Shown here: positions 4,516 through 15,267 of the stretch, one piece after another
Numbering within the stretch: the first letter of the stretch is position 1
How the letters are laid out: the number at the start of each line of letters is the position of its first letter
Assembly (NCBI GenBank): GCA_002011125.2
Contig: MTMF02000009.1
Span: 774,989-838,988 of the forward strand
Source of the DNA: Candidatus Hydrothermarchaeum profundi
GTDB lineage: Archaea > Hydrothermarchaeota > Hydrothermarchaeia > Hydrothermarchaeales > Hydrothermarchaeaceae
DNA length: 64,000 bases
Reading direction: 5' to 3'
Notes under the pieces: generated by a model
What the model was told of the DNA's origin: nothing
Database searches by the model: none
Seen by the model: only the letters and a program-made list of their open reading frames with translations
Program-made: the position numbers and the translations under genes

Positions 4516-4857
4516 TTATTTAAGAACCCAGATCAACTTTTTTCCAGCATGGTACATTGCTTTAAGACCATATTCCTTTGCAAGAGATAGGCCTGCTATA
4601 GTAAAGAGTTTTGTGAGAGGGGTGAGGTCTATTATAATATCGTAGCTTCTCAGATTTGCTTCTATTGCTTTCTTTAACGCCTCTCTTACTTTGTCCATCT
4701 CATGTTGATATACTTCGAACTCAAAAGTAATCTCTTCATCTCCGTAAGTATAGCCGGCGTCTCTTATCTTCTCTTGGGCAAGAGGTGTCGTAAAAGCAAT
4801 ATGTTTCTTGATCTTTATATTTTCTTTTTCAAGGAAGCCCAGAGCATCCTCAAGCAT
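4516..4857 (-). CDS. CARF-like (CRISPR-associated Rossmann fold) protein, probably 5'-truncated
   Basis: A 113-residue protein whose end (YDIIIDLTPLTKLFTIAGLSL then KAMYHAGKKLIWVLK) resembles the D-[LV]-T-x-x-[TL]-K segment and final strand of CARF domains, the cyclic-oligoadenylate sensors of type III CRISPR systems. There is no visible effector domain (HEPN, PD-ExK or RelE-like). The same frame stays open and protein-like upstream to about 4950 (FEIKAPILLISGYTYDP, which looks like the first Rossmann strand), but it contains no ATG, GTG or TTG before the stop at 5038-5040. The 5' end therefore appears lost. It lies directly upstream of cas10, divergently oriented. CARF assignment is by pattern only. 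Confidence 0.5.
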   Translation of the reverse strand: MLEDALGFLEKENIKIKKHIAFTTPLAQEKIRDAGYTYGDEEITFEFEVYQHEMDKVREALKKAIEANLRSYDIIIDLTPLTKLFTIAGLSLAKEYGLKAMYHAGKKLIWVLK

Positions 4858-5073
4858 CTCAAGAGTCGTAGAGTCTGGCTTATTCGGGTCGTAAGTGTAT
4901 CCTGATATCAGTAAAATAGGAGCCTTAATCTCAAACTCACGCCTGAAATATTGGATTTTTTGGGGGGTGACGCTATTAGAGATCTCTTTTCCTTTTTTAT
5001 CTTTTAATGAAAATAGAAAAAATATAAATAAAAGTTTTTAAAATATAAACTTGGAGGCAGTTAGTGGGATTAA

Positions 5074-5094: not shown

Positions 5095-6864
5095 TTGCAT
5101 ACTTGGGGAAGTTGTCTGGTGAGTGAGATGAATGAATTAATACCTGAGCTTCATGACATTGGAAAATTACAGAAGAAATATAAACATAATTTTGAAGATG
5201 CTGGATATACATTTGAATCTAAAACTTGGAGAGGGATTTTAGAACATCACTGTTCTCGTAATTTTGAAAAATATCCCTTAAGTTTAGATACTTTCAAATT
5301 AAAAATAGCAGACAAATTAGCATCTGCGGTATCGAGAGAGTATCGTGAAGATGGATGTCCTATTTATAATGTTTATAAGCTATGGAATCCAACGCGCGAG
5401 GAGATAACTATTCCGCCTCTTAGAACTGAGAAAGATATCAAGGAATTAATTGAATTTACTGTTAGCGTATCTACTTTTGAAGATTTTGTAATAAGATATG
5501 AAAAGCTGTTGAAATATCGGACAGAAGATGCGCATCCAAAGTCTAACTTAACTAGTCTGTATACTCATATGTTGCTTACTGGAAAATTATATAGAATATT
5601 GTCCGCGATAGATGAGTATACGGTCCACCAAGAAATTTTTCAAAATAAGGATGCTGTTTGTAGAGCGATTAATGAAAAAATGAACGAGTGGAAACTACGA
5701 GTTGTGCGATGTAAAATAAATTTTTCTCAGAGTCCGATACGTGCAAAAGATATGAATGTTTTTGTGGCATTAAACACTTCTAACGATGAAATTAAGCACA
5801 AATTTAAGGACAATATTTTATTTTCATTTTCAAATGAACTTTTTTTAATCACTGTTCCTAGAGAGGACATTGTTGGCAAAATCTCTGCTCTAATAAGTAA
5901 AAATGGTTTTTGGATAGAAGTATATGGAGAAGATGATATAAAATTGAGCACGATTGCAAATAGAGGTACTAATATATTTGAAAATTTAAGGAATCCAAAG
6001 GTCGTACATTACCAGCTTGAAAAAGAAATCGCGCCTCCAATATGTGAAATATGTCAAATGAGAAAAGCTACTCCTGAAACTAGGTGGGTGGATGAAGAAA
6101 GTGGCATTATCGAGGAATTATGTGAATATTGTTTTAAAATAAGGCAAATACCTGAAGTAAGACTTAAGAAACTTGTAAACTGGTCGAGCGAGGCTGAAAT
6201 TAAGGTTGTCTATCTTAAAATTTCACTTTCGACAGAACAACTTATGCATACTCTCAACCAACTTTATAGAAACTACACTGGAAGCAATGAACATGTTTCC
6301 TTGTCAATAATCTCAGAATTTCAATGGGATTATGAAGAATTTCTTAAGGAATTTGTAAGGAGAATAAGTATCGCGTTTAATGAAGAGGACATTCAATTAA
6401 TTTTAAATGATTTTTTAGGGATAAAAATAGAAAGAACCTCTGATATTAAAAAAATATTAGAGATATATAGCCAAATTTTTAAACAATACTTTCCTGAATT
6501 TATACAAAAATCTCCGATAAGACTTTCGATTAGTTGTTCGAGTGCCAAATTTCCATTTTTCTGGCACTGGAGGATTTTAAACGATACAAAGGACGAAATA
6601 AATGTAAGCATGATCGGAAAGGGTGAGATGCATCTTAAATTTTCTAAACTTGATGAGTTGCTTAGCATAGATTTACCAAATACCCGCATGTTACACAACT
6701 TAGATAGAATATCGCAGATTTCTAAGAAATTAGCATGGATAATGCTTAATGATAGAAGTGACCGGAGAATGTATAAAGAGTTTGAGGGGTTAAAAAGAGC
6801 GGTACTGGCGACAGGGATTAGCTATTCGAGCATATTAACCTATGCAAAGATTATGGGTGATTAG
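5095..6864 (+). CDS. cas10: Cas10-like large subunit with HD domain, lacking the GGDD cyclase motif
   Basis: 589 residues from a TTG at 5095 (an in-frame ATG at 5128 is an alternative; see the misplaced ribosome site). HDIGK at residues 20-24 is the metal-binding HD nuclease signature. A treble-clef zinc site follows in the middle, CEIC at about residues 317-320 paired with CEYC near 343-346, as in Cas10. The region after it aligns by eye with the second palm (SPIRLSISCSSAKFPFFWHW), but no GGDD or GGDE sequence occurs anywhere, so cyclic oligoadenylate synthesis is not expected. In type III complexes Cas10 organises the effector and cuts single-stranded DNA through HD. It is first in a tight operon with cas5, cas11 and cas7. 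The DNA is strikingly AT-rich (27% GC in the line starting 5761). Confidence 0.82.
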   Translation: MHTWGSCLVSEMNELIPELHDIGKLQKKYKHNFEDAGYTFESKTWRGILEHHCSRNFEKYPLSLDTFKLKIADKLASAVSREYREDGCPIYNVYKLWNPTREEITIPPLRTEKDIKELIEFTVSVSTFEDFVIRYEKLLKYRTEDAHPKSNLTSLYTHMLLTGKLYRILSAIDEYTVHQEIFQNKDAVCRAINEKMNEWKLRVVRCKINFSQSPIRAKDMNVFVALNTSNDEIKHKFKDNILFSFSNELFLITVPREDIVGKISALISKNGFWIEVYGEDDIKLSTIANRGTNIFENLRNPKVVHYQLEKEIAPPICEICQMRKATPETRWVDEESGIIEELCEYCFKIRQIPEVRLKKLVNWSSEAEIKVVYLKISLSTEQLMHTLNQLYRNYTGSNEHVSLSIISEFQWDYEEFLKEFVRRISIAFNEEDIQLILNDFLGIKIERTSDIKKILEIYSQIFKQYFPEFIQKSPIRLSISCSSAKFPFFWHWRILNDTKDEINVSMIGKGEMHLKFSKLDELLSIDLPNTRMLHNLDRISQISKKLAWIMLNDRSDRRMYKEFEGLKRAVLATGISYSSILTYAKIMGD

Positions 6865-7452
6865 ATGGAGTTTCTTGAATATAGGATAACTTCAGATATC
6901 CTTTGTATGGGGGAAAGAATAAAGAAAGGTACATTTAGGCCGTGTATTACTACAATTCCATATAGTCAAATTACTGGTGCTCTAAAAGCAATACTAGGTA
7001 GAGAAATTGCCGCTACTGGATGTTTAATTCGAGATGGGATACACAATAATGTAGAATATCTGATTTATTCGCCTAGAGATAGAAGTACTGAAACCAGCAA
7101 ATTGCCGCTAACGATACAAATTTTAACTAATGTTCTTGGAAGAGTCTTTATACCAAAGAATGATTCGAGTGAACTACCAGAACAGCTTTCAATAACTATG
7201 GGAGCACTTAAATCAAAAGGTATAGGAAGATGTAAATTAAAGAAGATTAGGAAAATTAAAAATCCTCGATTTAAGCGAGGAATGTTGAATACTCGTATTC
7301 CTCTCGATTTGAAAGAAAACTTTGGAATTAGAAATGTTATAAAACCACAGTATGGTTATTTATTTAGACCAACTTCTTCTACAAGCGGCGTTTATGTACT
7401 TTCTCTATTTGAAAACTCAGAAATTTACGGACCAGAATTTCTGATGAGGTGA
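6865..7452 (+). CDS. cas5: Cas5-like RAMP protein of the compact type III effector
   Basis: 195 residues, starting at the ATG immediately after the cas10 stop. The region GALKSKGIGRCKLKKI (about residues 112-127) is a glycine-rich loop of the RAMP fold, and the N-terminal MEFLEYRITSDILCM reads as the first RRM strand. Given its size, single copy and position between cas10 and cas11, it is best read as the Cas5 subunit that caps the crRNA 5' handle. It is much shorter than Csm4 or Cmr3. Sequence conservation is weak, so the call leans on context. Confidence 0.65.
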   Translation: MEFLEYRITSDILCMGERIKKGTFRPCITTIPYSQITGALKAILGREIAATGCLIRDGIHNNVEYLIYSPRDRSTETSKLPLTIQILTNVLGRVFIPKNDSSELPEQLSITMGALKSKGIGRCKLKKIRKIKNPRFKRGMLNTRIPLDLKENFGIRNVIKPQYGYLFRPTSSTSGVYVLSLFENSEIYGPEFLMR

Positions 7453-7456
7453 GTAA

Positions 7457-7744
7457 ATGGATGAAATTGAGCAACTTCTTGAGGAAATAAAAAATGATTC
7501 GAATTTTAAAAAAACGAGATTTACCGCAAATTTTGTAAATGATGTAGCCGATGTCTTTGAAAAATATGGATTTGGAACTACAAGGACGTTCCTAATGGAT
7601 AAAAAAAGTCGCAGAGATTTGCACTTGCAAGCAGTAGCAATATTATCAATTTTAGAAAAATTTGAGAAAATAGAGAAGATTAAATTAAACAGAAGTATTG
7701 GGCGGTACATAATAAAAACATTAAATACATTAAAGAGGGGTTAA
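7457..7744 (+). CDS. cas11: Cas11-like small subunit
   Basis: A 95-residue, lysine/glutamate-rich, entirely helical-looking protein (MDEIEQLLEEIKNDSNF to TLNTLKRG), 4 bases after cas5 and one base before cas7. Its length, helicity and location between Cas5 and Cas7 match the small subunit that lines the inner belly of type I and III effectors and touches the target strand. No motif is diagnostic, so the assignment is by context. Confidence 0.6.
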   Translation: MDEIEQLLEEIKNDSNFKKTRFTANFVNDVADVFEKYGFGTTRTFLMDKKSRRDLHLQAVAILSILEKFEKIEKIKLNRSIGRYIIKTLNTLKRG

Positions 7745-7745
7745 A

Positions 7746-8522
7746 ATGAAAGTAGAGCAGAAATATAAAGTGATTTTAGTTACTGAGGAGCCTTTTAGAA
7801 TTGGCGGACCAAAAGATCCACTTTCAGGAGCGGATAATCCTGTAGCTATCGTAGGAAGCAAACTAGTAGTGCCCGGACCTTCCTTAAAAGGAGCATATCG
7901 AGCAGAAATAGAGAGATTTTTAATAGACAGATATTATGACAAAATAAATAAAAGGTGGGTTCAGGAAAAAGAAAGCTTAATGCCTTGTATACCTGCGACT
8001 AAACTATCAAAGGATGAGGAGAAGCTAGTGAAAAATAGATTATATAGAAGTGTTGCCTGTCATTACCCTTGTGATAAAAGACGAGATAAATGTGGAAATA
8101 CGGAGCATTCTATTTGTCCAGCTTGCTATTTATTAGGCTCCCAGGGATTGAATGGATTTCTTAGGGTACCCTTCTTGTTTTCAGAGGCTTCAGCTAGCGA
8201 GTTATACTCAGCGAGGATAGATCGAGCAGTTAGTACAGTTGCGCAAGGTACAAACAGACCTTATTCGCTAGTACCGGATGGAACTACATTTGAAGGGACA
8301 TTGACGGTTTTAATCAAAGATGATATCCTCGGTTGGGAGCTGGGAAAACCTAGGCCTCTTAGCGATATTTCAGGCAAAGACATATGGTTACCAAGTCAAG
8401 AGTGGACTCAGGAGAGGATACTAAGTGAAATGATAGTCCAAAGACTTCAGAACATTAAAATCCTTGGCGGATATAAATCAAAGGGTTGCGGTAAGGTTAA
8501 AATAACAATTAAAGAAGTATAG
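7746..8522 (+). CDS. cas7: Cas7-like (Csm3-type) backbone subunit
   Basis: 258 residues with the Csm3 pattern: RIGGPKDPLSGADNPV near residues 18-33, PGPSLKGAYRAEIE near 43-56, a cysteine group (C-H-Y-P-C, C-G-N, CPAC) and LLGSQGLNGFLRVPF, then a terminal glycine loop GGYKSKGCGKVKI. Asp30 in the ADNPV segment sits where Csm3 has its catalytic aspartate (the IDSPV region), so target-RNA cleavage at 6-base steps is plausible. The cysteines probably bind zinc. It is the only Cas7 paralogue in the locus, unlike III-A, III-B and III-D, which carry several. Confidence 0.85.
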   Translation: MKVEQKYKVILVTEEPFRIGGPKDPLSGADNPVAIVGSKLVVPGPSLKGAYRAEIERFLIDRYYDKINKRWVQEKESLMPCIPATKLSKDEEKLVKNRLYRSVACHYPCDKRRDKCGNTEHSICPACYLLGSQGLNGFLRVPFLFSEASASELYSARIDRAVSTVAQGTNRPYSLVPDGTTFEGTLTVLIKDDILGWELGKPRPLSDISGKDIWLPSQEWTQERILSEMIVQRLQNIKILGGYKSKGCGKVKITIKEV

Positions 8523-8530
8523 ATAAAAAA

Positions 8531-8563
8531 GAGCTATAGCTCGGTCCTTAAAATTTTTATATA
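8531..8563 (+). promoter_or_regulatory. 12-base palindrome and TATA-like stretch before cas6
   Basis: GAGCTATAGCTC (8531-8542) is a perfect palindrome in the gap between cas7 and cas6. It is followed by the AT-rich run TTAAAATTTTTATATAG just before the cas6 ATG. The palindrome could be an operator or weak terminator, and the AT-run a core promoter, which would make cas6-cas1-cas2-cas4 a separate transcription unit. Confidence 0.35.
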
Positions 8564-8564
8564 G

Positions 8565-9263
8565 ATGAGATTCAAGACAACTTATTTAGTTCTTAGTACA
8601 GATAGGCCAGTCAAAGAAGAGGCTTCTAAGCTTAGAGGCTATATTGGTAACAAGTTTGAGGAGTATCCCATCCTTCATCATCATATAAGGGAAGTCGGCT
8701 ACTTATACACTTATCCTCGAGTGCAATACAAGGTGCTTGAAGGAACGCCTCACATCCTAGGGATAGAGGAGGGTGCGAAGGTATTGAAGGAGATATCAGG
8801 CGGCTTAAATGAGTTGGTATTGGGCAGAAGCCATTATACGGTTAAACAGAAAATACTCTATGAGCAGGAGGTAGAGCTTAGATCTTCTAGGAAGAAGCAG
8901 TATAGGTTTATAACACCTTGGCTGGCCTTAAATCCTGATAACTATAGAACCTATCAGAATATTGAAAATTGGAAGGAAAAGAAGGAGTTTCTAAACCGCA
9001 TACTGGTGGGCAACATACTCTCGATGTGCAAGAGCCTTGGTATAGTAGTGGAAAAGCATTTATATGCCCACACCCATCTTTATTCAAGAAAAGTAAATTA
9101 TAAGAATGCCCCATTAATGGGCTTCACAGGCGAGTTTAGAGTGAACTTTATTATCCCCGAGTTCTTCGGCTTGGGGAAGGGGGTAAGCCAGGGGTTTGGC
9201 GCAGTTAAAAATGAAGGTCGTGATCGACGACTACGGGGCCTACCTGAAGAAAAAAGGCAATAG
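8565..9263 (+). CDS. cas6: Cas6 CRISPR pre-crRNA endoribonuclease
   Basis: 232 residues with two RRM-like halves: an N-terminal half starting MRFKTTYLVLST and containing the cluster LHHHIREVGYLYTYPRVQYK, and a C-terminal half ending in the Cas6 glycine-rich loop GLGKGVSQGFGAVKNEGR. It is predicted to cut each repeat to leave an 8-base 5' handle, here ATTGAAAC. The catalytic histidine cannot be assigned without an alignment. The last 53 bases overlap cas1. GC content is visibly higher than in the effector genes upstream, pointing to a different history. Confidence 0.88.
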   Translation: MRFKTTYLVLSTDRPVKEEASKLRGYIGNKFEEYPILHHHIREVGYLYTYPRVQYKVLEGTPHILGIEEGAKVLKEISGGLNELVLGRSHYTVKQKILYEQEVELRSSRKKQYRFITPWLALNPDNYRTYQNIENWKEKKEFLNRILVGNILSMCKSLGIVVEKHLYAHTHLYSRKVNYKNAPLMGFTGEFRVNFIIPEFFGLGKGVSQGFGAVKNEGRDRRLRGLPEEKRQ

Positions 9264-10209
9264 GTTCATAGTATCCTCAGAGGAGAAGAGCGAGGAGTTT
9301 GCATCTGATAAGGTAACGCAGGTCATTATACTAAAGGGATCGGCGATCACTACTGATGCAGTAAAATTGGCAGCAGAGAAATGCATAGACATAATATGCT
9401 TGGATAGAAGCGGAAAGCCTTACGCTAGAATATACCCGTGCAAGCTAGGTGGCACCACGTTAACTAGAAGAAATCAGCTGGCAGCATATTCAACCTCTAA
9501 GGGAGTCTTTCTGGCTAAAGCTTTTGTAGGCGCTAAAGTTGAAAACATGTCTTATTTTCTTAAGTCACTAGCAAAGAGTAGAGGAAATAGTGTACTAAAA
9601 GAAGCAGGGAATTTGATCTTGAAATTTTCTAAGAATATAGATGATGTAGAGGGAAATATCGATACCGTGAGAAACAGGCTTCTAGGCATTGAGGGTGAAT
9701 GTTCTAAGACTTATTTCTCTGCCTTAAGCGAGGTATTACCTAAAGGGCTCTACTCTGGGGTAAGAACAAGGAGGCCTCCTAGGGATGCGTTTAATGCGAT
9801 GATAAGCTATGGATATGGTGTTTTATATTCTGAGATTGAGAAGGCGTGTATAATTTCTGGGCTAGACCCATATTTAGGCTTCTTGCATACGGATAGATAC
9901 GGTAGACCTTCGCTGGTAATGGATTTGATAGAGGAGTTTAGGCAGCCAGTGGTTGATAGAGCAATGGTAACTCTGGTTGCAAGAGGTCAAGTAGAGAAAG
10001 ACTGCGTTAAAAGAGAGGAGGGAGTGTATCTGAACAAGAAAGGAAGGAAAATGGCTATTGAAGCGATGATGTCTCGCTTGGAGTCAAAAATAAAGTATAA
10101 GGGCAGAAGAATCTCTATGGAGGATATCATATTGAAGCAGGCTAGGGAGTTAGTGGGCTTTCTTAACGGTGACCGTAGGTCATATAAGCCATTTGTCTAC
10201 AGGTGGTGA
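9211..10209 (+). CDS. cas1: Cas1 integrase
   Basis: About 332 residues from the ATG at 9211 (MKVVIDDYGAYL), preferred over a TTG five codons earlier. The metal-binding triad is visible: Glu in LGIEGECSKTYF, His in GFLHTDRYGRPS and Asp in the following LVMDLIEEFR helix. Cas1 with Cas2 inserts new spacers at the leader end of the array. It is translationally coupled to cas6 by overlap, and cas2 follows with a one-base gap. Length and motifs are those of an intact enzyme. Confidence 0.96.
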   Translation: MKVVIDDYGAYLKKKGNRFIVSSEEKSEEFASDKVTQVIILKGSAITTDAVKLAAEKCIDIICLDRSGKPYARIYPCKLGGTTLTRRNQLAAYSTSKGVFLAKAFVGAKVENMSYFLKSLAKSRGNSVLKEAGNLILKFSKNIDDVEGNIDTVRNRLLGIEGECSKTYFSALSEVLPKGLYSGVRTRRPPRDAFNAMISYGYGVLYSEIEKACIISGLDPYLGFLHTDRYGRPSLVMDLIEEFRQPVVDRAMVTLVARGQVEKDCVKREEGVYLNKKGRKMAIEAMMSRLESKIKYKGRRISMEDIILKQARELVGFLNGDRRSYKPFVYRW

Positions 10210-10210
10210 A

Positions 10211-10513
10211 ATGCTAACTTGGGTGATATATGATATCTCTGATAATAGGCTGCGAACCCGTGTTTCTGAGAAGTGTAAAGACTACGGTATGGAGAGGTTA
10301 CAGAAAAGCGCCTTCCTCGGGGATCTCAGCAGGAATAACTCTGAGATGCTCGCTATAGAGATAGAGAAAATATTGGATGATGAGAATACTGTGGAAGAGG
10401 ACTGCGTATTCTTTTTGCCTATGTGTAGCTCCTGTATAAGCAAGAAGATAACGATTGGCAGAGGATTTGATGAAGAAGAATTTAAGGACAAATTCTACAC
10501 ATTCTTCGAGTGA
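10211..10513 (+). CDS. cas2: Cas2 adaptation protein
   Basis: 100 residues from the ATG at 10211 (MLTWVIYDISDNRLR), with the conserved first-strand aspartate at residue 8 (VIYDI) and the ferredoxin-like fold pattern, including the GMERLQKSAFLGDLS segment. It is the structural partner of Cas1. A start upstream of 10211 in the same frame would only add residues from within cas1 and is rejected. Its stop overlaps a possible GTG start of cas4. Confidence 0.95.
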   Translation: MLTWVIYDISDNRLRTRVSEKCKDYGMERLQKSAFLGDLSRNNSEMLAIEIEKILDDENTVEEDCVFFLPMCSSCISKKITIGRGFDEEEFKDKFYTFFE

Positions 10514-10518
10514 ATATA

Positions 10519-11100
10519 ATGGACAAAGAGGGCTATTTCTCCGCAAGAGATATAGTAGACTACGCATACTGTCCTAGAACAATATACTTCCGCTACTGTA
10601 TAAAAGCAGGGAAAGAAAAAACGCCAAAAATGAATAAAGGGCAGGAGTTGCATGAGTCTTTCACAGACAAGTCTAAAAGAACAAAAATCGTGAGAAAGTT
10701 GCCAAGGCTCCCTAAGAGATACAGCGTCAGGCTATCCTCAAGAAAGTATCATTTCAATACGATGGTAGATTGCATTATTTTAGATAACTCTAAGGCTTAT
10801 CCAATAGAATTCAAATACTCTTTAAAGCCAAAATACCTATACAATACTCATAAGTATCAGCTTGTCGCGCAGGCAATGGCAATAGAAGAAGAGCTAGGTA
10901 AGATAGTGCCTTACGGTTACATAAAATATGTAGATGGTTCTACAGCCAGGGTTTCAATTACTCAAAAGTTAAAGGAGAAGGTAGCTAATATTCTCCTTGA
11001 GATGGAAGACATAATAAGGTTCGAAAGGCTCCCGAAAGAAACGTCATCGAAGAAGAGATGCAATTCGTGTTTTTACATAAACCTATGTAGAAGACTGTAG
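10519..11100 (+). CDS. cas4: Cas4 RecB-like FeS nuclease
   Basis: 193 residues from the ATG at 10519 (an in-frame GTG at 10510 is possible). The 4Fe-4S ligands are visible as one N-terminal cysteine in DYAYCPRTIYF and three at the C terminus (CNSCFYINLC). The RecB motifs are present: Asp in MVDCIILDN and E-x-K in AYPIEFKYSL. Cas4 trims prespacers and helps fix PAM and orientation during adaptation. It is the last gene before the leader and array. Confidence 0.95.
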   Translation: MDKEGYFSARDIVDYAYCPRTIYFRYCIKAGKEKTPKMNKGQELHESFTDKSKRTKIVRKLPRLPKRYSVRLSSRKYHFNTMVDCIILDNSKAYPIEFKYSLKPKYLYNTHKYQLVAQAMAIEEELGKIVPYGYIKYVDGSTARVSITQKLKEKVANILLEMEDIIRFERLPKETSSKKRCNSCFYINLCRRL

Positions 11101-11229
11101 AAAGCCGAAAAATATAAATTCTCGGTAGGTCTTTATAAAGGATGGTGCAAAAAGGAGACTCACCTGAGAAGCCTTCTGAAAGGAGGAAAATCAGGCGAGT
11201 TTAGGCGAAAATAAGGAATTTTATAGCCT
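11101..11229 (+). promoter_or_regulatory. CRISPR leader
   Basis: The 129 bases between cas4 and the first repeat contain a TATA-like AAATATAAATTCTCGG early on and purine-rich tracts (AAAAAGGAGACTC, GAAAGGAGGAAAATC). No protein-like frame is present. Position, cas side and repeat direction (handle ATTGAAAC at the far end) mark it as the leader that drives pre-crRNA transcription and spacer insertion. Confidence 0.75.
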
Positions 11230-13733
11230 GTTGCAGAAGTCGATCTAGTAAAACAAGGATTGAAACAGTCTACAGGGTCGCTAGTAGTTAAGGATACTAA
11301 TAGTTGCAGAAGTCGATCTAGTAAAACAAGGATTGAAACATGTTCCACAATCTAGAATATGAGCGAGAAATTCTTTGTTGCAGAAGTCGATCTAGTAAAA
11401 CAAGGATTGAAACCTTATACATCAGGCCATGTTCAACAAAATTACTGCACGTTGCAGAAGTCGATCTAGTAAAACAAGGATTGAAACAACTCAAACGAGG
11501 CACGTGCTTTGGCGGCCTCGTAGTGTTGCAGAAGTCGATCTAGTAAAACAAGGATTGAAACATCGAAGACGGAGTTGACAAAAACTCCAGCCTTTTCGTT
11601 GCAGAAGTCGATCTAGTAAAACAAGGATTGAAACCATAATATACCGAGATATACGAGGATATATAAAAACTTGTTGCAGAAGTCGATCTAGTAAAACAAG
11701 GATTGAAACTCCCAGACGAGATAGACGATACCGACTCTCTATACGTTGCAGAAGTCGATCTAGTAAAACAAGGATTGAAACCACCGGCACAGGCATGGCA
11801 GCCGCCAGGGGATACAGGTTGCAGAAGTCGATCTAGTAAAACAAGGATTGAAACGGGGTATACGTGCACCTCAGCGGCAGGGACGTCGACGAGTTGCAGA
11901 AGTCGATCTAGTAAAACAAGGATTGAAACGTTTCCAAGACTTGATATTTATGTAGATTCCTAGCAGTTGCAGAAGTCGATCTAGTAAAACAAGGATTGAA
12001 ACGTCTCAGTGAGCAGGCGGATAGACTTTGAAGACTACGGTTGCAGAAGTCGATCTAGTAAAACAAGGATTGAAACATGTTGATAGCGATAGTGATTTTG
12101 AGAGCGGATTAAAGAGTTGCAGAAGTCGATCTAGTAAAACAAGGATTGAAACTCTTGAACGGATGCATCTCTCGCCAGTCCCTTATCTCTGTTGCAGAAG
12201 TCGATCTAGTAAAACAAGGATTGAAACACCATAAAGCTATTGTTCAATATTCCGAGTGTAAACAAGTTGCAGAAGTCGATCTAGTAAAACAAGGATTGAA
12301 ACTTGCATTTACCGAGGAGCCTTATCTCAGTGCTTTTACCGTTGCAGAAGTCGATCTAGTAAAACAAGGATTGAAACAATTGCCGGAATTCCAGCCAGTT
12401 CTTTTCTATACGTACAAGTTGCAGAAGTCGATCTAGTAAAACAAGGATTGAAACCACTACGCAAAGGCACTAAGCGTAGGCTTCCAGAGGTAAGTTGCAG
12501 AAGTCGATCTAGTAAAACAAGGATTGAAACACCTTAACCTCTTTTTTTGCCTCAACACTATGAGACTTGTTGCAGAAGTCGATCTAGTAAAACAAGGATT
12601 GAAACTGTGACATACGGTCTTGATATATACACATTAAAGCCTGTTGCAGAAGTCGATCTAGTAAAACAAGGATTGAAACTCCTTAATAGTCTTTCCAACT
12701 CAAAGAAATTATCTTCAGTTGCAGAAGTCGATCTAGTAAAACAAGGATTGAAACATATTTATCAACAGATATTACCTCAAATTTTCTATCAGTTGCAGAA
12801 GTCGATCTAGTAAAACAAGGATTGAAACTGTGACATACGGTCTTGATATATACACATTAAAGCCTGTTGCAGAAGTCGATCTAGTAAAACAAGGATTGAA
12901 ACTCCTTAATAGTCTTTCCAACTCAAAGAAATTATCTTCAGTTGCAGAAGTCGATCTAGTAAAACAAGGATTGAAACATATTTATCAACAGATATTACCT
13001 CAAATTTTCTATCAGTTGCAGAAGTCGATCTAGTAAAACAAGGATTGAAACATCATATAGAGCGTCTAAGAACTTATTCCAATTTCTGTTGCAGAAGTCG
13101 ATCTAGTAAAACAAGGATTGAAACTCCTCACTTAGCTCGATGCCCGCCTCATACTTATCTATAATAGTTGCAGAAGTCGATCTAGTAAAACAAGGATTGA
13201 AACTGCTCGGCATTACTCAGCTCTTCATACCATTCTGTAGCGTTGCAGAAGTCGATCTAGTAAAACAAGGATTGAAACAGATCCTCAAACATATTTCATC
13301 ACTCCTTACATTTTTTTTGTTGCAGAAGTCGATCTAGTAAAACAAGGATTGAAACAAATAATCCAGGATTAAACCAGTATGCTGTTAGCTCATTAGGTTG
13401 CAGAAGTCGATCTAGTAAAACAAGGATTGAAACGGGATTTTCTGCAACTCTCTGTCTAATATCTTTTGTAAGTTGCAGAAGTCGATCTAGTAAAACAAGG
13501 ATTGAAACTGGTGTAGCTTCGTGTTGTGTCAAATTTAATATCCTCGTTGCAGAAGTCGATCTAGTAAAACAAGGATTGAAACAATTCATTTTTCAATTTC
13601 CAAACTCTTGGCGTCTTTTTGTTGCAGAAGTCGATCTAGTAAAACAAGGATTGAAACCCTGCCAAGCCTTTCAACGTTGCAATCTGAACTGGCAGAGTTG
13701 CAGAAGTCGATCTAGTAAAACAAGGATTGAAAC
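11230..13733 (+). CRISPR. CRISPR array, 34 repeats of 37 bp and 33 spacers
   Basis: The repeat begins GTTGCAGAAGTCGATC and ends AAGGATTGAAAC (37 bases); every copy I checked is identical, including the last at 13697-13733. Repeat starts were counted at 11230, 11303, 11377, 11451, 11525, 11598, 11673, 11745, 11818, 11893, 11966, 12040, 12116, 12191, 12266, 12341, 12418, 12494, 12569, 12643, 12718, 12792, 12866, 12941, 13015, 13088, 13167, 13242, 13319, 13397, 13472, 13546, 13621 and 13697. Spacers are about 35-42 bases. The array is transcribed away from cas4. Complete identity of repeats suggests active maintenance or recent expansion. Confidence 0.98.
12569..13014 (+). repeat. Exact 223-bp tandem duplication of three repeat-spacer units
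   Basis: The block 12569-12791 (three repeats plus spacers starting TGTGACATACGG, TCCTTAATAGTC and ATATTTATCAAC) recurs without change at 12792-13014. Both copies have the same three spacers in the same order. This is a segmental duplication by recombination between identical repeats, not independent acquisition. Confidence 0.95.
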
Positions 13734-13811
13734 GGGTGGAGTAGAGTTATAAGTGTTGGAGTTAATTATCATGAATAGAGTATCTTCTACTCTAGCAGAG
13801 GAGAATGGTAT

Positions 13812-14120
13812 ATGGAGCCTAAAAGAATCAAAGAACTCGTTGAAAATGATGACTTCGTTATTTCGAGCCACGCAAGAACGAGAATGTTCCAGAGGAATGT
13901 CTCTACTGATGAGATTAAAAGCATTATACTCCTCGGTGAAGTAATTGAGGAGTACCCAGATGACGAGCCCTGTCCTTCGGTCCTAATCTTAGGTTTTCTA
14001 AAGGATGCTCCCTACCATGTTGTTGTGGCAGAATGCTTAGACCATGTTAGGATAATAACAGTTTATAACCCAGAAGCGGATAAATGGGTTGACTACCGGA
14101 AAAGGAGGAGCCGAAATTGA
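13812..14120 (+). CDS. DUF4258 protein, putative toxin of a toxin-antitoxin pair
   Basis: 102 residues with the DUF4258 pattern: ISSHARTRMFQRNVSTDEIKSIILLGEVIEEYP, then PYHVVVAECLDHVRIITVYNPEADKWVD. This BrnT/RelE-like fold is commonly paired with a YgiT-type zinc-finger gene, exactly as here, and such pairs are annotated as MqsRA-like toxin-antitoxin modules. The stop codon overlaps the start of the next gene (TTGA). It sits immediately past the last CRISPR repeat. Confidence 0.8.
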   Translation: MEPKRIKELVENDDFVISSHARTRMFQRNVSTDEIKSIILLGEVIEEYPDDEPCPSVLILGFLKDAPYHVVVAECLDHVRIITVYNPEADKWVDYRKRRSRN

Positions 14121-14362
14121 AGCCTAGGAAATGTGGCCTGTGTAAGGGAAGACTTCAAAAAGGAAAAACGGAATTCACAGTAAAGGTTGAGAAGACGATC
14201 CTCTCTATTAAGGATGTGCCAGCCTATGTATGTCAGGAGTGTGGAGAGGCCTACTTCACCCCAAGGATCTCGCGGAAGATCGACAAGGTAATGAAGGAGT
14301 TTCACGAAGGCAGACTTTTGGCTTATCCAATCGCTGCTGGAGAAATCAGGCTCGAAGCCTAA
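14117..14362 (+). CDS. YgiT-type zinc-finger protein (MqsA N-domain-like), putative antitoxin
   Basis: 81 residues, TTG start supported by AAAGGAGGAG a few bases upstream and by overlap with the preceding stop. Two CxxC knuckles (CGLC at residues 6-9 and CQEC at 39-42) form the YgiT/MqsA zinc domain; the rest is a short helix and tail. It lacks the C-terminal HTH of full-length MqsA, so DNA binding is uncertain. It is the probable antitoxin for the DUF4258 protein. Confidence 0.8.
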   Translation: MKPRKCGLCKGRLQKGKTEFTVKVEKTILSIKDVPAYVCQECGEAYFTPRISRKIDKVMKEFHEGRLLAYPIAAGEIRLEA

Positions 14363-14489
14363 AAAGTTTTAGCTATTTTTATCTATTGATTCTAAGTATC
14401 CAATTTGCAGGTTAAATACTAGAGGGAGTTATTAGATTGAGGCTATATACTGGGAGGTTATTAATAGCCTCAGTAAGTTCTATGATTCC

Positions 14490-14513
14490 GTTGCAGAAGT
14501 CGATCTAGTAAAA
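14490..14513 (+). repeat. Orphan partial CRISPR repeat (first 24 bases)
   Basis: The first 24 bases of the array repeat recur exactly, from GTTGCAGAAGTCGATC through AAAA, 756 bases beyond the array. The handle half is altered: the array has CAAGGATTGAAAC, while here the sequence is GGAATTGGAATGC. No protein frame covers this site; the 14363-14714 gap otherwise holds only AT-rich sequence and the operator of the next gene pair. An inverse copy of the handle (GTTTCAAT) occurs at 14648-14655, perhaps by chance. Confidence 0.85.
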
Positions 14514-14685
14514 GGAATTGGAATGCTCTCGTCAACGAAAGCAAACTCCAGTGCTTATTCAGGTTGTAAAAGTTAATTTCGTAATTTTTCTGTATAATAG
14601 ACTCTAATTTTGATGAAAATAACTTCTTCACTTTCCTTCCAAAAAGGTTTCAATATAGAAATCTAGTTAGACGATATTTTTCTAT

Positions 14686-14707
14686 AACTCTATATATCTA
14701 TAGAGTT
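14686..14707. promoter_or_regulatory. Perfect inverted repeat operator of vapBC-1
   Basis: Arms AACTCTATA (14686-14694) and TATAGAGTT (14699-14707) flank four bases, ending 7 bases before the antitoxin ATG and overlapping the TATA-like sequence. This is a typical site for autoregulation by the VapB/VapBC complex. Confidence 0.6.
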
Positions 14708-14714
14708 GAAGATT

Positions 14715-14909
14715 ATGTCTACCACAATAATGGTTCGTGAGGATCTCATGAAGATGCTTAACAAATTGAAAAAGGAGACCGGAGCAAAAAGCTATGACGA
14801 GTTGCTAAGGAAGCTACTAAAGAGAGCGAAGAGATTGGAAAAAACCCATTTTGGGACTCTGCCGGATATTAAGAGCTTTGAGAGGGAGGAACTTGACCGT
14901 TTTGATTGA
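14715..14909 (+). CDS. vapB: VapB-type antitoxin
   Basis: 64 residues from the ATG at 14715 (MSTTIMVREDLMKMLNKLKKETGAKSYDELLRKLL), a ribbon-helix-helix/AbrB-like archaeal antitoxin in which the first strand contacts DNA and the charged tail binds the toxin. A TTG three codons upstream lies in the operator and is rejected. It overlaps vapC by 17 bases. Confidence 0.85.
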   Translation: MSTTIMVREDLMKMLNKLKKETGAKSYDELLRKLLKRAKRLEKTHFGTLPDIKSFEREELDRFD

Positions 14910-15267
14910 CTCTTGGGCCTGGATAGAATATTTTAAAGGCTCGGAGGCAGGGGCTAAAGCGAGGAAAATCATCGAGGGCGATGAGGAGTCCATCGTGAGC
15001 ACGATAAACCTGGCAGAGGTCTACCAATGGATTCTCAGGTTTTATGGTGAAAAGACTGCAGATGAGAAGATAGAGGTTATTAAAAAGAGGTGTTTTGTGG
15101 TAGATGTTGACCCAGAAATTGCGATAGCTAGTGCAATGATTAAGCACGATATGGAATTTGGTTTGGGCGATGCTATCGTGCTAGCTACTGCCAGGCGTGA
15201 GAATGCTAAGGTGTTGACAGGCGACCCAGATTTTGAAAACCTGGAAGATGCGGTATGGCTTGGTTAG
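14893..15267 (+). CDS. vapC: VapC-type PIN-domain ribonuclease toxin
   Basis: 124 residues from a TTG at 14893 (LTVLIDSWAWIEYF). The PIN acidic residues are visible: Asp in LIDSW, Glu in NLAEVYQW, Asp in FGLGDAIVLATA and Asp in VLTGDPDF. Such toxins cut tRNA or rRNA when released from VapB. An upstream in-frame start would add residues encoded inside vapB and lacks family support. Confidence 0.88.
   Translation: MTVLIDSWAWIEYFKGSEAGAKARKIIEGDEESIVSTINLAEVYQWILRFYGEKTADEKIEVIKKRCFVVDVDPEIAIASAMIKHDMEFGLGDAIVLATARRENAKVLTGDPDFENLEDAVWLG

Follow-up and report, generated by a model that had tools for sequence, protein, structure and literature searches.

A lone, incomplete CRISPR repeat in Candidatus Hydrothermarchaeum profundi is most probably the leftover of the leader-distal end of a neighbouring array, array 1, displaced by DNA that carries a DUF4258/YgiT gene pair. 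The window, the whole stretch of 64,000 nucleotides analysed here, belongs to contig C9 in a genome of 2.19 Mb. Read directly, the orphan half-repeat at 14490-14513 (+), GTTGCAGAAGTCGATCTAGTAAAA, matches bases 1-24 of the 37-nt array 1 repeat, GTTGCAGAAGTCGATCTAGTAAAACAAGGATTGAAAC, exactly; it lies in the same orientation as the array and on its leader-distal side (Table 1). Most likely it reflects the ordinary decay of an array and does not represent a novel regulator. The direct evidence for a remnant consists of the orphan's identity, orientation and uniqueness, a worn neighbour one period on, and the general habit of array ends. An array-end remnant is thus well supported in form and place, and insertion of the toxin-antitoxin-like pair is its likeliest cause; the insertion at the end of array 1, its mechanism and the remnant's present lack of function are what we infer.

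Table 1. Features around the orphan half-repeat (window coordinates)
Feature	Position	Strand	Remarks
CRISPR array 1	11230-13733	+	34 intact 37-nt repeats, leader on left
Last intact repeat of array 1	13697-13733	+	next slot without half-repeat
Intervening DNA, putative insertion	13734-14489	+	756 nt, ends approximate
DUF4258 protein, putative toxin	13812-14120	+	PF14076, E 2.6e-25
YgiT-type zinc finger protein, putative MqsA-like antitoxin	14117-14362	+	TIGR03831 above cut-off
Presumed old spacer following the orphan	14527-14562	+	position only
Proposed terminal repeat, a half-repeat worn more heavily than the orphan	14563-14584	+	16/22 identical to repeat
vapBC-like pair	14706-15267	+	antitoxin just under Pfam cut-off; PIN toxin

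The orphan half-repeat and the two arrays

The sequence-only reading had placed a half-repeat 756 bp past the array, with the first 24 repeat bases perfectly kept, and both statements are confirmed, the gap being counted from the end of the last intact repeat. Its further statement, that the 3' handle half is changed, stands base for base, as the repeat remainder CAAGGATTGAAAC has become GGAATTGGAATGC in the orphan and the altered tail reaches to about 14526, but a gapped alignment softens it: with a small gap allowed, the tail is still similar to the repeat end (GGAATTGGAA versus GGATTGAAAC). In the orphan the repeat's 5' half survives and its 3' half is lost. A genome-wide search allowing at most 2 mismatches returned 53 copies of the repeat, 34 and 18 of them in two arrays and the last being the orphan, which makes it the only such copy outside both arrays; the same search in 60 other genomes gave zero copies. 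Chance occurrence of an exact 24-mer in a genome of 2.2 Mb is negligible. Searched against Rfam, intact repeats alone matched CRISPR-DR7, just below the cut-off, and the orphan remained unmatched. A sigma-70 promoter scan, whose model does not cover archaeal promoters, had zero matches. In a scan of genome contigs, one Lachnospiraceae contig matched.

The cas genes that precede array 1 (5095-11100) form a type III-F system, with subtype models matching Cas10, Cas5, Cas11 and Cas7, followed by Cas6b, Cas1, Cas2 and Cas4. PMC11229360 describes III-F systems as generally having an HD nuclease and lacking the cyclase motif; in the Cas10 translation here the HD motif HDIGK is present and GGDD is not seen. 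A 113-aa protein with CARF-type matches (4516-4857, minus strand) adjoins the III-F operon, although III-F is said, in the same paper, to be without cyclase motifs. Within array 1, positions 12569-12791 and 12792-13014 are identical tandem copies of a 223-nt block of three repeat-spacer units. Array 2 (C9:770731-772040) contains an identical 38-nt spacer twice, at non-adjacent positions (11185 and 11411 of the separately analysed stretch L009, that is, C9:771184 and 771410). Beside the array 2 trailer, at 12176-12930 of L009 on the minus strand, lies a two-gene unit that by eye resembles HEPN plus minimal nucleotidyltransferase, so that both arrays would border toxin-antitoxin-like pairs at their old ends.

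Array 2 holds 18 intact copies of the array 1 repeat some 14 kb from array 1, and the array 1 leader (11100-11229) recurs in front of it. A second source of the same repeat at that distance, together with an intact last repeat in array 1 and a broken spacing beyond it, would suit an orphan that is the remnant of a different array, or a repeat copy made by ectopic recombination, and not the end of array 1. The orphan nevertheless shares the orientation of array 1 and lies on its trailer side; a search for a copy of the leader in 13735-14720 found no match, which counts against a separate array there; and a worn neighbour follows one period past the orphan. We consider an origin outside array 1 unlikely.

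A second worn unit and the ends of other arrays

If the orphan belongs to an array, the next unit is expected to start 72-80 nt past it. The sequence at 14563, 73 nt from where the orphan begins, is GTTGTAAAAGTTAATTTCGTAA; five of its six changes from the repeat are C>T or G>A. Its level of identity to the repeat over 22 nt was equalled at 1 of 149,964 background positions (about 7e-5 for 11 slots), a length that was picked post hoc, lengths of 18, 20 and 24 giving 3e-3, 5e-4 and 8e-4 for 11 slots. This unit begins with GTTGTAAAAG, and the worn terminal repeat of array 2, a unit 35 nt past the last intact repeat there, begins with the same 10-mer, which has 17 sites in the 2.19 Mb genome; the offset is 73 nt from the orphan start in one case and 72 nt from the start of the last repeat of array 2 in the other. 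In array 2, that terminal unit is itself only 12/22 identical (about 0.05 for 11 slots), and an alignment of the whole orphan trailer with the array 2 trailer is not significant, 160 of 2000 shuffles being equally good. One period upstream of the orphan, no repeat-like unit rose above background. The orphan is probably the last-but-one unit of the old array, with a more worn half-repeat as its terminal one. The presumed old spacer between the two had zero matches of at least 11 nt within 79 kb of the contig. A viral origin of this spacer was ruled against, its 20-mer having no exact match in IMG/VR, and an 18-mer in the stretch before the orphan that matches one virus contig was taken as chance, as the match ends at those 18 bases.

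How do array ends look elsewhere? We surveyed 60 listed Cas1 places, chosen for long contigs before any results were seen, together with two contigs of genome G021. Fifty of 63 sequences (our own contig counted) held 58 arrays after removal of duplicates, and exclusion of the 8 that reached the end of their stretch left 48 foreign arrays, all from other archaea, and our 2. A half-repeat was called when the slot behind the last intact repeat contained the repeat's first (or last) 18 bases with no more than 4 mismatches. By this test a half-repeat with its 5' half kept stands in that slot in 15 of the 48 foreign arrays and one with its 3' half kept in 3 of 48, so that a kept 5' half with a lost 3' half is a common state of array ends. 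Control windows farther out passed the same test in 13 of 2349 cases, a count that includes true copies (such as the orphan itself and those in stretches L084 and L089). In L084, the array end at 2304-2680 is tandemly duplicated with long flanks, giving several extra half-repeats. The survey bears out the sequence-only reading's premise that wear in terminal repeats falls on the 3' end, as do passages of PMC8047081, by which terminal repeats often differ at that end; the authors of CRISPRDetect likewise describe degenerated repeats at the leader-distal end in PMC4869251. Array 1 itself has 11 mismatches to the half-repeat in the slot after its last intact repeat. A second worn unit was found behind none of the 15 foreign half-repeats, the best candidate having 8 of 18 mismatches, so a two-unit end is not the usual pattern.

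Why, then, does the orphan lie so far from the array? An undisturbed array end would follow the repeat upstream at one spacer's distance, which the orphan, 756 nt away, does not; a displaced remnant need not do so, and we attribute the displacement to a probable insertion. The DNA in between encodes a DUF4258 protein and a YgiT-type zinc finger protein, presumably a toxin-antitoxin type pairing, with putative function; DUF4258 relatives occur in 3 other genomes of a set of 23 from the same phylum, our own genome counted. The array would once have closed with the orphan repeat, followed by a spacer of about 36 nt and the decayed terminal half-repeat. This old end would then have been parted from the intact array by some 0.7 kb with the gene pair, insertion into the oldest spacers being the simplest route. 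Cut off from recombination with intact repeats, it would have retained the repeat's 5' half and lost the 3' half, as array ends often do. An unrelated array offers a parallel: in stretch L096 (11060-13501), from a second genome, the array is followed by an AAA_14/DUF4143 gene and then, at +1837, by a half-repeat with its first 20 nt kept, which is a half-repeat stranded past an array by a gene. In stretch L077, from a further genome, a repeat fragment lies at +1845 past an ORF, with the 3' half kept there instead, which counts against the parallel. Insertion at the array end may be called a fair inference. The search for a target-site duplication around the intervening DNA gave at best two 5-mers, a result equalled at 24% of random places. 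The sequence-only reading's proposal that the gene pair split off the array end can accordingly be divided: an array-end remnant fits best by form, strand and worn neighbour, while the insertion is the part we propose by reasoning, with a target duplication no better than chance.

A solitary repeat with a gene pair alongside would also suit an RNA anti-CRISPR (Racr) that arrived with mobile DNA, since solitary repeat units exist in phages and plasmids according to passages of PMC10651486. The orphan, however, is part of the host chromosome, close to the cas locus and its own array, and has a second worn unit behind it, and zero virus contigs hold the exact first 29 bases of the repeat; we give a Racr origin next to no credence.

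Regulatory readings of the orphan

The orphan keeps the 5' part of the repeat and loses the handle, as does the second pseudo-repeat of CreA; passages in PMC9458426 and PMC8501985 assign the 8-nt handle to the first CreA pseudo-repeat, and to the second a preserved 5' part with the handle lost. The orphan could on this model be the second pseudo-repeat of a CreA- or CreR-like RNA, with a guide upstream at about 14444-14489 that would direct the effector to a toxin promoter (CreA) or to the cas operon promoter (CreR). A handle-like ATTGAGGC, noted before any target search, does lie at 14436-14443, 46 nt upstream of the orphan, and matches at 6 of 8 positions, but a 6/8 handle is present in 12% of 21-nt windows. 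Nor does a full pseudo-repeat upstream stand above background, 17% of windows scoring equally; a degenerate full repeat picked out by eye at 14404-14443 (TTGCAG, CTAG and ATTGA in order) was rejected on that score. At the toxin promoters (vapBC and DUF4258) no match exceeds chance. An 11-nt match within the vapC gene was equalled in 0 of 60 shuffles, but 30 tests were made in all and the match falls within coding sequence. Neither a DevR-family Cas7 nor a Cas3 above cut-off was found in the genome, its effector being III-F, so the known effector of CreA guides, a type I Cascade, was not found. The sequence-only reading had offered a CreA-like mimic repressing a nearby promoter, and with neither a promoter match above chance nor a type I effector found, that proposal is unsupported as worded; a CreA- or CreR-like element is in our view very improbable.

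A narrower version looks to the cas operon. The 14 bases past the handle (14444-14457) match 12 of 14 positions at 5044-5057 before cas10, in a TATA-like stretch, a level reached on four upstream regions by 37 of 2949 random 14-mers and 0 of 51 real spacers. The orphan might then be the second half of a crRNA-like regulator through which the III-F complex dampens the cas operon, with a guide from 14444 and its target at 5044-5057. We know of no earlier autoregulator of this kind for a type III system. The guide length of 14 was, however, picked after the match was seen; in a shuffle test 10 of 60 were equally good, and the same 14-mer has 27 other genome sites at up to 2 mismatches. The guide is moreover in the sense of the cas mRNA and unable to pair with it, and would be of no use against that transcript to a complex that targets RNA. 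We hold such autoregulation to be highly improbable; were the cas-promoter match true, type III systems too would use crRNA-like self-control. CreR itself has been reported from types I and V-A (in passages of PMC12737573). We file the orphan as neither CreA nor CreR.

Comparison with known systems

Array ends can be stranded when genes settle on the leader-distal side, so before a lone half-repeat near an array is labelled a regulator, an origin as array debris should be tested; for such a test the survey provides a base rate, 15 of 48 examined arrays ending in a half-repeat with its 5' half kept. Among known elements, the orphan resembles a degenerate terminal CRISPR repeat in its kept 5' half, lost 3' half, strand and leader-distal side, and differs in its distance from the last intact repeat, 756 nt in place of a single spacer, and in having a further worn unit behind it. 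With CreA and CreR it shares the state of an ectopic repeat with a lost handle near toxin-antitoxin-like genes, but it differs from them in having no clear first pseudo-repeat, no toxin-promoter match and a III-F effector. Like a Racr it is a single repeat away from an array; unlike one, it is located on the host chromosome, adjacent to its own array.
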